64,000 bases of DNA from Limnohabitans sp. JirII-31 (GTDB lineage: Bacteria > Pseudomonadota > Gammaproteobacteria > Burkholderiales > Burkholderiaceae_C), in contig NZ_NESA01000013.1 in the NCBI RefSeq assembly GCF_002778315.1, forward strand, positions 1-64,000. The letters run 5' to 3'. Within the stretch, counting starts at the first letter, position 1. Each line of letters begins with the position of its first letter. The notes beneath the pieces were generated by a model, which saw only the letters and a program-made list of their open reading frames with translations, had not been told where the DNA came from and did not search any database. A program made the translations under genes and the position numbers. Of the stretch, positions 5,848 through 10,089 are shown in pieces.

Positions 5848-5904
5848 GCTGGGATGATACCCAAGCACGCACACACACCGGTGTGCGTGGCCTGTGACAC
5901 GCGC

Positions 5905-6867
5905 TTATTTGTTGACGTGGCTATCGGCCAGTCGGCGCTCTTCGTCCATCTGGTTGACGATGGATTCAACCTGGTCATCCGACATGCCAAATTTGGCCTG
6001 CATGGTTTTGAGCTTGGTCTTTTCTTCTTCGGTGATCACGCCGTCAGCCAAGACCGAGCGCACTTCCATTTCGTACAAAGCCTCGCGACGCTCCACCTGC
6101 GCGGTGTAGGCCGTGGCCACCACACCGGTCAAGATAGCGGCCAAGGCGATGGACAGCACCTGAGTGAGTATCACGAGGATGGTGCCGACAAACGTCACCG
6201 GGTCGACGTTGCCCCAGCCTGAGACGATGGTGATGACAAACCAATGCATGGCCGCAGGGATGGAGGGAAAGACATCGGGCTGGTCGTGGCCTTCGATGAT
6301 GTAGATCAGCGACGAGAACAACAAGCAGCTGATGAACAGCAAAAACACAGCCGACGAAAATGAATCGCGCTCCGCTTTGACCGCAGCCACCATGTCTTCG
6401 AAGGCGCTGTTGTAGCGCGAGAGTTTGAAGATTCGCATCAGGCGGAACATGCGCAGCACGCGCAAATCGGCACCTGGGAATAACAGTTGCAAGTAAAACG
6501 GCACGGTGCTGAAGAAGTCAACCAGGCCGTAGAAGCTGAACATGTACTCTTTGCGCCCGCGCCAAGGCGAGTCTTCTACCGCGTGGTATTTTTCGCTGTA
6601 CGACCAGACGCGTAGCACGTATTCGATGGAGAACACGGCAACGCTGAAGACGTCAAAGGCGTGGAAGATGTGTTCGAACTCTTCGTGGATGTGAGGCACC
6701 GACTCCAAGATGATGCCGATCACGTTGGCCACCACCAGCACGGCAATGAAGATTTCACAGAAATGGCTGGCCTTGTCGGGCACGGCACCTTCCAGAATTT
6801 CGTAGGTGCGACGCTTGATGCGTTTCAAAGCGCTGGTGTGGGTTGGGGGTGTGGAGACGGTCGTCAT
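5905..6867 (-). CDS. Voltage-gated-channel-like protein with variant filter SGWGN
   Basis: 320-residue six-helix protein of the voltage-gated ion channel superfamily. The N-terminal voltage-sensor part ends in an arginine-rich S4 (DLRVLRMFRLMRIFKLSRYN). S5, pore helix and S6 follow. Where potassium channels carry TVGYGD, this protein has ITIVSGWGNVDP, one residue shorter and with Asn for Asp. The cytoplasmic tail holds SVLADGVITEEEKTKL, a DGxxxxEE helix pair also found in the two upstream channel proteins. It lies eight bases after its closest paralogue. A channel role is family knowledge; the ion cannot be predicted, and a non-conducting subunit is possible. Confidence 0.85.
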   Translation of the reverse strand: MTTVSTPPTHTSALKRIKRRTYEILEGAVPDKASHFCEIFIAVLVVANVIGIILESVPHIHEEFEHIFHAFDVFSVAVFSIEYVLRVWSYSEKYHAVEDSPWRGRKEYMFSFYGLVDFFSTVPFYLQLLFPGADLRVLRMFRLMRIFKLSRYNSAFEDMVAAVKAERDSFSSAVFLLFISCLLFSSLIYIIEGHDQPDVFPSIPAAMHWFVITIVSGWGNVDPVTFVGTILVILTQVLSIALAAILTGVVATAYTAQVERREALYEMEVRSVLADGVITEEEKTKLKTMQAKFGMSDDQVESIVNQMDEERRLADSHVNK

Positions 6868-6875
6868 GGCAGGGC

Positions 6876-7787
6876 TCAGCCGTTTTTCAAAGTTTTGTTT
6901 TGTGCGCGCTGCAGCATGGCCTCCACCTGCTCGTCGGTCAGGCGGTAGTGGGCTTGCAAACGTTTCAGGCTGGCTTGTTCTTCGTCAGACATGTTGCCGT
7001 CAGAGAAGATTTCGCGCAGCTGTGCTTCAAACGCAGCTTTCTTGCGGGCCACTTGGTTGGAGAAGGCCGACGCCACGATACCGGTCATGATGGCGGCCAT
7101 ACACACGCCCAAGAAGCCGGTGATCAGCGCAATGGCTTCGCCGGCTTTGGTCATGGGTTCGACGTTGCCGTAGCCCGAGGTGATGGTGATGATGGACCAA
7201 TAAATCGAGTGTGGGATGGTGCCAAAAAACTCTGGCTGCTCATGACCCTCGGCAAAGTGCATCAGCGAGGCCGACACGATGGTGGCAATCGTCAGCAAGA
7301 AGACGGCAGAGCCGAAGGCTTGACGTTCGGAGTACACGGCATGAAACAAGTCTTGCAACGCGGTGTTGTATTTGGACAGCTTCAAGATTCGCAGCAGTCG
7401 CAAGACCCGCAAGATGCGCAAGTCCAGATACGGAAAGAACATGTGCATGTAATGCGGCATGGTGGCAAAGAAGTCGATCAGGCCAAACGAGCTGAAGATG
7501 TAGCCACGGCGACCCTTCCAGGCGCCGCCTTCTTCCGCAGAGAAGCGCACACCCAAAGACCAGACGCGTAGCACGTACTCGGCCGTGAAGAACATCACGC
7601 TCCAAAACTCCAATTCGTGGAAGAACTCTTTGAATTCGGCATGTACCTCGGGCACCGAGTCCAAGATCACCGCCGAGCAATTGACCAGCACGACGGTGGT
7701 GATGAGCCACTCCACATATCTGCTGAGCGTGTGCTTGGGCGATCCATCCAGGATCTCCATGAGGCTGCGTTGTAGGCCGGTGATCAT
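6876..7787 (-). CDS. Voltage-gated-channel-like protein with variant filter SGYGN
   Basis: 303-residue six-helix voltage-gated channel superfamily protein, paralogous to the next gene downstream. S4 reads DLRILRVLRLLRILKLSKYN. The filter region is IITITSGYGNVEP, one residue shorter than the canonical TVGYGD and with Asn for Asp. The tail contains EIFSDGNMSDEEQASL, matching the DGxxxxEE tail of the neighbours. ATG at 7787 is chosen over a TTG two codons earlier. The 83-base gap to the upstream two-sensor channel is the largest inside the cassette. It may form a heteromer with the neighbours; this is inference. Confidence 0.85.
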   Translation of the reverse strand: MITGLQRSLMEILDGSPKHTLSRYVEWLITTVVLVNCSAVILDSVPEVHAEFKEFFHELEFWSVMFFTAEYVLRVWSLGVRFSAEEGGAWKGRRGYIFSSFGLIDFFATMPHYMHMFFPYLDLRILRVLRLLRILKLSKYNTALQDLFHAVYSERQAFGSAVFLLTIATIVSASLMHFAEGHEQPEFFGTIPHSIYWSIITITSGYGNVEPMTKAGEAIALITGFLGVCMAAIMTGIVASAFSNQVARKKAAFEAQLREIFSDGNMSDEEQASLKRLQAHYRLTDEQVEAMLQRAQNKTLKNG

Positions 7788-7870
7788 CGTCAAAAATTTC
7801 TATACAAGGTCGTCAAGGTCAGAGCGGGCAGACCAAGCCCCGCTCTGTGTCACAGGTCAAGCGCGGTGTT

Positions 7871-9505
7871 TCAGCTTCGGTTTTGAATGCTTTGCCACAG
7901 CGCCATTTCTTTCTCGCTCAACGCGCCGGCTTGGGCCGTGGCTTCGAATTTGGCTGTGTCGGTGTGAATGCCCAGTTGTCGAATTTGGCCGAGCAGAGTT
8001 TTGAAATGCTCCACCGCAAGTGCCGGACTTTCGGCGATTTTGTGCACGGGCAGAGGGCTTCGTTCTTCCAGCTCATGCTCTTTGATCACTTGGTCGATCA
8101 GGGCATTGATCTCTTCGTTGGTCAGGTGCAGCCGCTTGGCTTCTGAGCGAATCAAAGCAGCTTCTTCATCGTCAATCTTGCCGTCTTTGAGGATGCTGAA
8201 CAGATTGGCTTTCAGGGCGTCACGTTCTTTGACCAATTCATCGCTGAAGGCGGAAGCTAACAAGGCTGCAGGGATGGCAAAAATACCAATGCCTAGCAAG
8301 GCCAAGATGATGGTCAGCGTGCGACCGATGGGGGTGATCGGCGAGATATCGCCATAGCCCACCGACGCCAAGGTGATGACGGCCCAGTAAATCGAGGTGG
8401 GAATGTTTTCAAACTTGTCGGGCTGTGCGTCGTGTTCAAACAGATAGCCCAAGCTGGCCGTCAAGATCACCAGCAGCAACATGATGAAGGCCGATGCGCT
8501 CATCACGGGCCATTCGCGCACCACGACTTTGAACAAGGTGGCAGTGGCATCACTGCCGCGAGTGAGTTTGAGCAGTCGTGCCAAACGGAACACCCGCAAG
8601 AAGCGCAAGTCGAACAGGTGATGCAAGAACACTTCCAGAAAGAAAGGCAGCACCGCCAAAAAGTCGATCACGGTCGAGGGCGTTTTGGCTTGTTTGATGC
8701 GCCCTGAGATGGCACCTTTGAAGCCAGGTTCTTCCACGCATGAGTAAATGCGCATGCAGTATTCCACGGTGAAGATGGCCACAGCCAAGGCGTCCAGCAC
8801 GACAAATTGCAAATTCAGGATGTACTGAATGCTTTGTACAGACTCCAGCACCACGGCCAATACAGACAGCAGCACCCACACGGCAATGAACACTTCAAAA
8901 ATGTTTTGCATGGTGCCGCCGTAAGGGCTGGGGTACACCAGTGCGTGGACTTTTTGGCGGAACGTGCGGTCTTTGTTGAGCTCTTTGAACTCTTGAATCG
9001 CAGGCACCACCACGCGAAACAGTTTCAAAATTCGCAGCAATCGCAAGAACCGTAGCACGCGCAGGTCAATCGGGATGAAGGCTTTCAAATAGAACGGTGC
9101 CACCGCCAAGAAGTCGATGATGGCAAACGGGCTGGTGATGAACCCAAAACGTGCGCTCTTTCTGTTTTTGAACTCTTCATCCTCGGGCGCGAGATACAAG
9201 CGCAAGGCATATTCAATGGTGAAGACGGCCACAGAAAAAATGTCGAAGAACTCAAACCAGTGCTTGTTGGGTTCAAACACCGCAGGCACGTGTTCGAACA
9301 TCAAGCTAAAGAGGTTGGCAATGATCAGGTAGCTGATCCATTTGTCGATGTCTTTTTGAAAGTTGCCAGGGATGTGCGGGTCCAGCAACCATGAATACAG
9401 CCATTTGCGCATGGGCAAGTGACGATCAATTTTTGCCTCGTCATCTTGGCCACCCAAGATGGCTTCAATGTTCAGGTTTTTGAGGAATTGGCTTTTGTTG
9501 TCCAT
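7871..9505 (-). CDS. Ion channel with two tandem voltage-sensor domains and one K+-type pore
   Basis: 544-residue protein with an unusual layout. Residues about 55-165 form a complete S1-S4 voltage sensor (S4 DLRVLRFLRLLRILKLFRVV) with no pore after it. Residues about 200-315 form a second sensor (S4 DLRFLRVFRLARLLKLTRG). S5, pore and S6 follow, with a canonical potassium filter SVGYGD at 381-386. A cytoplasmic tail from about 430 holds ILKDGKIDDEEAAL and a further helical extension. Ten membrane helices are expected instead of six. The gene begins eight bases after the anchored protein gene upstream, and the other two channel genes follow. Potassium selectivity is inferred from the filter. 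Confidence 0.88.
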   Translation of the reverse strand: MDNKSQFLKNLNIEAILGGQDDEAKIDRHLPMRKWLYSWLLDPHIPGNFQKDIDKWISYLIIANLFSLMFEHVPAVFEPNKHWFEFFDIFSVAVFTIEYALRLYLAPEDEEFKNRKSARFGFITSPFAIIDFLAVAPFYLKAFIPIDLRVLRFLRLLRILKLFRVVVPAIQEFKELNKDRTFRQKVHALVYPSPYGGTMQNIFEVFIAVWVLLSVLAVVLESVQSIQYILNLQFVVLDALAVAIFTVEYCMRIYSCVEEPGFKGAISGRIKQAKTPSTVIDFLAVLPFFLEVFLHHLFDLRFLRVFRLARLLKLTRGSDATATLFKVVVREWPVMSASAFIMLLLVILTASLGYLFEHDAQPDKFENIPTSIYWAVITLASVGYGDISPITPIGRTLTIILALLGIGIFAIPAALLASAFSDELVKERDALKANLFSILKDGKIDDEEAALIRSEAKRLHLTNEEINALIDQVIKEHELEERSPLPVHKIAESPALAVEHFKTLLGQIRQLGIHTDTAKFEATAQAGALSEKEMALWQSIQNRS

Positions 9506-9513
9506 GTCAAACC

Positions 9514-10089
9514 TCAGAATTCGAGTTCAGTAATTTTGATGGGGTAGCCACCTTTGTCGCAGACCGTGATGCGCAGTTGCATCTTGTAATCAATCGGGTC
9601 TGCTTCGACCAACTGACTCGCCACAAATGGCAAGGCGGAGCCTGCGGGTGTGGGCATCAAGTCTTCAATGACGATGGCACCCGGGGTGCTGCGGTCAGAA
9701 GGCACGCATTGCGCGATCAGTTTGGGTGGCTCTTTGAAGAAAGGGTTGACCAAGTCTTTCAACTCGGTCTCAGTCATCAAATACTTCAAACACGCGCCCC
9801 AGGTACCTGGTGCATCTGGCTTGGCATCTGCGCCGGGCTTGACGCCACCTTTGCAGGCCGGGTGTTTGGTGTTCTCATCAAAACGTGTGGTGCCCGCTTC
9901 GGTCATCCATGCGGCCCATGTTTCACCATTCAATTTGGAGGTTTCTGTTTTCAGGCCTTCGCCGTAGTTTTTGATGCCCAGCCACGTGACTGCGACGAGT
10001 ACCAAGGCTAAGAAAGCCAGGAAGAAATAGTCTGTGGTGGTGGGGCCCAGATGCGGGACCTGTGGCGTGTGATCGTTCGACGTTTTCAT
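9514..10089 (-). CDS. Membrane-anchored protein of unknown function, first gene of channel cassette
   Basis: 191 residues. One N-terminal membrane helix (DYFFLAFLALVLVAVTWLGI, residues about 20-40) with no signal peptidase site, then about 150 soluble residues, probably periplasmic. The soluble part has four cysteines (in HPACKGG, WGACLKY, AQCVPSD, TVCDKGG) that could form two disulfides. I recognise no family. It sits eight bases upstream of the two-sensor channel gene and is probably cotranscribed with all three channel genes, so it may be an auxiliary subunit or an external sensor for the channel. Confidence 0.75.
   Translation of the reverse strand: MKTSNDHTPQVPHLGPTTTDYFFLAFLALVLVAVTWLGIKNYGEGLKTETSKLNGETWAAWMTEAGTTRFDENTKHPACKGGVKPGADAKPDAPGTWGACLKYLMTETELKDLVNPFFKEPPKLIAQCVPSDRSTPGAIVIEDLMPTPAGSALPFVASQLVEADPIDYKMQLRITVCDKGGYPIKITELEF

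Follow-up and report, generated by a model that had tools for sequence, protein, structure and literature searches.

A conserved four-gene cassette in Limnohabitans encoding a predicted double-sensor potassium channel, a candidate single-pass partner and two channel subunits with shortened filters

The cassette and its four genes

The present analysis concerns a cassette of four minus-strand genes, read from position 10089 to 5905 in the order anc, kch, cis2 and cis1, in the first 64,000 nucleotides of contig NZ_NESA01000013.1 of Limnohabitans sp. JirII-31 (this whole stretch is referred to below as the window). A preliminary description of the same DNA had recorded four genes on this strand separated by 8, 83 and 8 bases, and the open reading frame coordinates agree, with cis2 counted from its ATG (7787); the listing of reading frames begins cis2 instead at an upstream TTG, 7793. 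It had also described three of the products as voltage-gated-channel proteins, one with a K+ filter and two with altered filters. All three exceed the Pfam cut-off for Ion_trans, and their filters read TLASVGYGD (kch), TITSGYGN (cis2) and TIVSGWGN (cis1). It missed that kch contains a further full voltage sensor and that the two altered filters have a one-residue deletion in common. The features are as follows (VSD, voltage-sensor domain; AF2, AlphaFold2; Kv, voltage-gated K+ channel).

9514..10089, minus strand: anc, 191 aa, single-pass, putative periplasmic domain, four invariant cysteines; proposed kch partner
9886..10038, minus strand: anc residues 18-68, long helix (AF2), the first half a membrane anchor (hydrophobic stretch read from the sequence)
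7871..9505, minus strand: kch, 544 aa, 4+6 predicted transmembrane helices, canonical K+ filter
8978..9358, minus strand: kch VSD1, residues 50-176 (AF2 helices; separate Ion_trans match at 9008-9340)
8561..8917, minus strand: kch VSD2, residues 197-315 (AF2 helices; Ion_trans match; S4 charges)
8348..8365, minus strand: kch filter SVGYGD, residues 381-386 (from the sequence)
8060..8206, minus strand: kch helical tail with the DG..EE motif, residues 434-482 (AF2 helices 446-458 and 463-482)
6876..7787, minus strand: cis2, 303 aa, six-helix Kv-like subunit, Pfam Ion_trans; the ATG start matches the length of most orthologues
7164..7181, minus strand: cis2 filter TSGYGN, one residue shorter than TTVGYGD
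5905..6867, minus strand: cis1, 320 aa, six-helix Kv-like subunit, Pfam Ion_trans
6208..6225, minus strand: cis1 filter VSGWGN, with a one-residue deletion as in cis2

Comparisons between loci were made on the best 80 named loci of 379 relatives, which lie close to the query, with gene starts in the relatives picked by rule. The DGxxxxEE tail, previously said to be common to the three channel proteins, is indeed present in all three window proteins, and as a family trait it is looser: the exact motif occurs in 28/80 kch, 14/58 cis2 and 50/55 cis1 sequences, and the form [DN]Gx(4-5)E in 79/80, 56/58 and 53/55, respectively. The cis1 tail resembles TerB weakly (E 0.014, 16.1 bits against a cut-off of 24.4), and the Pfam scan gave no TerB match for kch or cis2.

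The predicted architecture of kch is that of a full voltage sensor preceding a full six-helix channel. Ion_trans scores 156.1 bits over two stretches of the protein and Ion_trans_2 63 bits, over its cut-off, and in the genome search the extra Ion_trans match covers residues ~56-166. The AF2 model (mean predicted local distance difference test score, pLDDT, 73.4) places first-sensor helices at residues 50-71, 81-108, 126-143 and 148-176, second-sensor helices at 197-221, 224-258, 276-294 and 301-315 followed by a linker helix, and a pore part with helices at 332-357 and 392-439 around a pore helix at 368-381. Two sensors set kch apart from a Kv channel with one S1-S4 sensor per subunit, and two S4 motifs are found in 73/80 kch sequences, a single one in 7/80. 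In an alignment of 32 sequences, four of them kch2 paralogues, the VSD2 charges R301, R304, R307, R310, K313 and R316 are invariant, as are R155, R158, K161 and R164 of VSD1, with R149 and R152 nearly so. Invariant, too, are the tail residues D441, G442 and E448, together with E98, D131, E248 and D281, which we take for the S2 glutamates and S3 aspartates of the two sensors. The filter reads SVGYGD or SIGYGD in 80/80, fitting [ST]-x-G-[YF]-G, with a spacing of 9 from the pore-helix Trp to the first filter Gly in every case. By its filter, kch would be a canonical K+ channel, and a voltage-dependent K+ current is predicted. In the Protein Data Bank (PDB), the best fold match of the VSD2-pore part is Kv4.2 (Z 15.6, root-mean-square deviation 6.0 over 208 residues), with Kv1.3 and KCNQ also found, and the best sequence matches are KCNQ4 and Kv2.1. 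The likeness to Kv4.2, Kv1.3 and KCNQ lies in VSD2, pore and filter; the difference is the extra front sensor of kch, since the alignment to those chains begins only near residue 177. The benefit to a K+ channel of carrying two complete voltage sensors per subunit is directly testable. Protist tandem Kv-like channels also have more than one voltage sensor per chain but are reported to repeat whole units with a pore each (PMC7576140), whereas kch repeats the sensor only.

The spacing from Trp to the first Gly of GYG/GWG is 8 in all readable cis sequences (55/55 cis1 and 58/58 cis2), leaving out one cis1 and one cis2 that are cut by a contig end and give no filter-pattern match. The missing residue is the Val of TVGYG, where MAFFT placed its gap; an HMMER alignment of cis2 to the Kv1.2-2.1 chimera has the gap just before GYG, in the same place. 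Neither protein has a full-length T-x-G-Y-G filter, nor one like the TLESW of NaChBac-type sodium channels: the window sequences are SGWGN and SGYGN, with close variants elsewhere. NaChBac-type channels share with cis1 and cis2 the six-helix voltage-gated subunit, and differ in that the cis filters are related to TTVGYGD. The S4 motif is present once in 55/55 cis1 and 57/58 cis2, and the S2 motif in 55/55 and 58/58; like a Kv channel, both proteins have an Ion_trans domain and S4 charges. A full-length TTVGYGD is kept in the Kv relatives L048-L053 and L055 and in the cis-like gene of locus L176. In the tree, which has long branches among the outgroups, cis1 forms one group (100/100) and cis2 another (100/98), the two are sisters (100/99), and the canonical TTVGYGD channels fall outside. 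By these sequence comparisons, cis1 and cis2 are sister proteins that arose from ordinary Kv channels by duplication and, since they are sisters, the filter deletion is most simply taken to be older than that duplication. Likewise directly testable is the effect on a K+ filter of a one-residue deletion that selection has retained in two paired subunits.

The fourth protein, anc, had been described as membrane-anchored with four cysteines, and both traits are seen. Its AF2 model (mean pLDDT 91.6) has a 51-residue helix (18-68) and then a small four-strand domain, and the four Cys columns are invariant in 30/30 aligned members, which suggests a periplasmic position with disulfides. Searches for relatives found little: anc has no Pfam or NCBIfam match; Pfam over 30 members gave two families only, in one member each (E 0.04 and 0.08); a PDB sequence profile search returned a single match at E 0.44; and the fold search against the PDB gave none at E 0.001 or better. 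Aligning anc with VIA-align 2 on Foldseek's best chains yielded nothing above Z 3.6. For a type IV pilin-like fold, in which a long N-terminal helix packs on an antiparallel sheet, the comparison was with pilin FimA (Z 3.3, root-mean-square deviation 4.6 over 97 residues), which is tied with unrelated folds, Fn3 and Ig-like among them. KCNE and Nav beta subunits are single-pass partners with an outside domain, as is proposed for anc, and its PDB sequence and fold searches gave no relation to either.

Conservation and distribution

The preliminary description had made its proposal depend on the gene order recurring in related genomes. The order anc-kch-cis2-cis1 was found in 54/80 loci, one of them with a split cis2, an outcome in favour of that proposal; the figure is not a frequency in nature, since the sample was drawn from the best matches near the query. 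A further 19/80 carry anc-kch with no cis match; in 11 of these 19 the sequence continues for 5 kb or more downstream, and some others stop soon after kch. In four of the 80 the sequence runs out at or inside the cis2/cis1 part, and in three it starts with kch. Directly 5' of kch lies anc in 77/80 (once as a 75-aa piece at a contig end), and in the three loci with no upstream anc, kch starts within 120 bases of the contig start. The anc-kch gap is exactly 8 bases in 69/76; cis2 and cis1 overlap in 44/54; and the kch-cis2 gap ranges from -4 to 119 (median 91, 58 loci). Median pN/pS, the ratio of non-synonymous to synonymous differences, was 0.19 for kch, 0.16 for cis2, 0.19 for cis1 and 0.32 for anc, from seven chosen sequences (21 pairs) per gene with synonymous sites nearly saturated, and indicates that purifying selection acts on all four genes. 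The recurrence of the order, these ratios and the fixed anc-kch gap argue that the cassette is not a chance run of genes. Decay of the filters, or of the cis genes into pseudogenes, was also considered, and is ruled out by the low cis ratios and the fixed filter motif.

Promoter and terminator scans showed no excess over shuffled sequences (2 versus 2.3 and 7 versus 5.7); judged by their spacing, the four genes of this operon-like cassette are presumably transcribed as one unit.

Within the genus (84 genomes sampled), anc was found in 71 genomes and cis1 in at least 56. Among the cis1 matches listed for the genus, 45/57 places share the strand of anc and follow it at a distance of 2.55-2.74 kb downstream. 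Eight regions of the other 12 places were examined, leaving out those of G211, G155, G220 and G200: in G228 and G174 the upstream contig end holds a piece of kch, in G172 and G224 the region is truncated where the contig stops, and G152, G156, G166 (second copy) and G206 (with 1.7 kb of upstream sequence) have no kch or anc upstream of cis1. Outside the genus, the sequence samples indicate that the cassette is rare. Only 5/299 genomes of a family sample have anc, three of the five belonging to the genus of the window. A double-sensor kch at 63% identity or more occurs in 9/399 genomes of another family sample, four of which (G460, G344, G406 and G390) fall outside the genus, in 4/399 of an order sample (G000, G686, G810 and G835) and in 2/398 of a phylum sample. 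The search of the 399 family genomes also gave a split kch copy in G259, where locus L075 holds a broken anc-kch pair, kch being split over two frames and anc having an internal stop. The named records bear titles such as Limnohabitans, Rhodoferax, Polaromonas and Comamonas metagenome bins, and several isolate names of carriers presumably point to lakes and reservoirs. A viral origin found no support, as the five pattern matches of kch among viral contigs included no relative. Against plasmids, kch gave four records with E of 1e-20 or lower, and in no case did the match extend over 80% of the protein. The best, from Gemmobacter aquarius, carries only the annotation 'ion transporter' and is 33% identical to kch over residues 40-433; it is a 491-aa alphaproteobacterial protein (L202, 4842-6317) aligned to both kch sensors.

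Two channels or one

The preliminary description saw in the four proteins a single dedicated heteromeric complex, and this was demoted from best reading to rival once the two gene pairs were found apart. In the 11 loci with enough downstream sequence, anc-kch occurs with no cis gene, and in L186, L187 and L193 (from G152, G156 and G166) cis2-cis1 occurs without anc-kch, inside a different ion-transport block. L176 (G686) has the arrangement cis0-anc-kch, and its cis0 keeps an intact TTVGYGD filter. Two channels are preferred to one complex because the pairs occur apart, because L176 has its own arrangement, and because gaps are short within the pairs but not between them. Our tentative reading, in which we place a little less than even confidence, is that the cassette devotes one pair of genes to each of two voltage-gated channels (kch with anc, and cis2 with cis1), which would jointly shape the membrane potential.

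In such a scheme, kch would form a K+-selective tetramer, each subunit having two complete voltage sensors, with anc as a single-pass, periplasm-facing partner. The products of cis2 and cis1 would co-assemble into a second voltage-gated pore which, since the Val position of TVGYG is lost, would have fewer K+ sites and might lack selectivity, select another cation or be silent by itself. The kch conductance would drive the membrane to the K+ potential, the cis conductance would take it elsewhere, so that the two together could let the cell shape or limit swings of membrane potential. NaK, a channel not known to have a voltage sensor, offers a partial parallel for the cis pore, with the difference that its filter is TVGDGN, whereas the cis proteins lack a residue. 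The likeness is a K+-channel-like filter with fewer ion sites that is non-selective: the number of filter sites is reported to set selectivity, with four in K+ channels and two in non-selective NaK (PMC9822992). By analogy with that principle, the missing residue would be expected to change selectivity in cis1 and cis2 (PMC9822992).

The shortened filter could also be simply non-conducting, which is among the points that weigh against two working pores. In that case, cis1 and cis2 would be voltage-sensing regulatory subunits that modulate kch or other channels, or that signal without a pore. Silent Kv subunits provide a likeness, and the loss of a filter residue in both proteins, with S4 and S2 motifs retained almost throughout, speaks for such a role. 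We nevertheless regard this, a main rival of the two-channel reading, as rather unlikely: there is strong conservation of the pore helix, the G[YWF]G, the Asn after it and S6, which is unexpected for a dead pore, and the pair is also found without anc-kch.

Other points count against the two-channel reading. The cis pair of G156 (L187) adjoins ureD, as the cassette of the window does, and since its block shares this neighbourhood, G156 may represent a joint locus that lost anc-kch and not an independent module. Linkage across many genomes is equally expected of one four-part complex. The role of anc as partner of kch is proposed from gene neighbourhood, with no PDB relative above Z 3.6. In the loci read, no anc match adjoins two other double-sensor channels, kch2 and a 484-aa protein in L186, so that anc is not required by every channel of this kind. 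The kch model, of a monomer, is poor in the pore, where pLDDT falls below 50 at residues 364-389.

A single complex, with anc, kch, cis1 and cis2 co-assembling as one heteromeric channel in which kch gives K+ selectivity and the cis subunits alter it, deserves to be weighed. It is in keeping with the fixed four-gene order, the related tail of all three channel proteins, the cis-like gene with a canonical filter that is also joined to anc-kch in L176, and the ureD neighbour of the G156 pair, which keeps this reading alive. The occurrence of each pair without the other speaks against it, as does a kch-cis2 gap that is long and variable beside short gaps within the pairs, and on balance we consider it unlikely.

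The cassette appears from its sequences to be a variant of voltage-gated channels, its two outstanding features being the double-sensor K+ channel and the paired shortened-filter subunits. Among the top-ranked matches in the open-access PubMed Central literature, judged by title and start of abstract, there was no bacterial channel of sensor-plus-six-helix form and none with this cassette. Its freshwater carriers may control membrane voltage in a way not yet described.

Neighbouring genes in relatives and in the window

Some relatives have further channel genes close by. Genes of NaChBac type (NaV, filter TLESW) occur in 9/80 loci, and in 5/36 of the cis1-bearing loci with at least 4.5 kb downstream; kch2 occurs in 6/80, four of which also have NaV. 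In all four, the NaV and kch2 genes overlap by four bases downstream of the cassette (L092:15793-18263, L090:9202-11606, L094:9615-12019 and L096:15795-18220). L067, L082 and L190 show this overlap as well, and L066, L080, L081 and L191 have kch2 without a NaV match. A bolder reading of the cassette is that of an excitability module, in which the double-sensor K+ channel and its partner would repolarise the membrane and an obligate cis1/cis2 heteromer depolarise it, giving voltage-driven swings, with NaV and kch2 added in some relatives. We think this rather improbable. Excitability with NaV partners as a general rule was set aside, NaV being present in 9/80 loci and absent from the genome of the window. 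If the pairs do act together, and in some relatives with the adjacent NaV, the cassette would be a genetically compact candidate for a means by which free-living freshwater bacteria signal electrically.

A plainer explanation is that of an ordinary channel set for K+ homeostasis, or one linked to motility, with no special electrical role and with the duplication and filter change incidental. In its favour, anc-kch lies about 5-6 kb after fliG on the same strand in L070, L146, L150 and L157, and in L177 and L178 it has motAB nearby. Across the genus, however, a FliG match was found in 56/71 genomes with anc and in 7/13 without it (many genomes being incomplete); with 15/71 having anc and no FliG match, and 7/13 the reverse, presence of the cassette is not tied to flagella, and motility was rejected as its function. 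Purifying selection and the fixed deletion also argue against drift, and we judge this explanation improbable. Between the flagellar block and anc-kch, L070 has a protein with a Pfam carbonic anhydrase domain of eukaryotic type, and similar-looking proteins are present there in L146, L150 and L157.

The ion-transport block at L186:4495-16820 comprises, in order, DUF1538, a PII-like protein, two family-less proteins, cis2, cis1, a ClC chloride channel and a 374-aa protein with a partial Ion_trans match; these families come from Pfam on L186, and the blocks of L187 and L193 were matched to it by eye. Another gene of the L186 block has what we take to be a resemblance to Na+/H+ antiporters. L186 adds two further K+ channels and a NaV-like gene (filter TGDGW), the last lying beside the 484-aa double-sensor channel. 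In L105, L106 and L107, two NaChBac-type genes lie 5' of anc on the strand opposite to anc-kch, and in L106 and L107 two apparent, presumed chromate-transporter halves lie between them.

In the window, the cassette is preceded by an apparent ABC transporter set (judged by eye) and followed by ureD (Pfam UreD), 57 bases beyond cis1 if begun at its ATG. The 3.48 Mb genome has one further channel of this type, beyond which Ion_trans matches nothing else at E 0.001 or better; the same search, which kch2 would also match, found neither NaV nor kch2. The further channel (kch3, G000 contig C12, L077:9355-10560) is a single-sensor kch relative that retains the inter-sensor linker and lies ~24 kb from fliG. 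The gap between cis1 and ureD (window 5848-5904) contains a 9-base inverted repeat with a 6-base loop, seen by eye and with no T-run on that strand, which is a possible terminator or operator.

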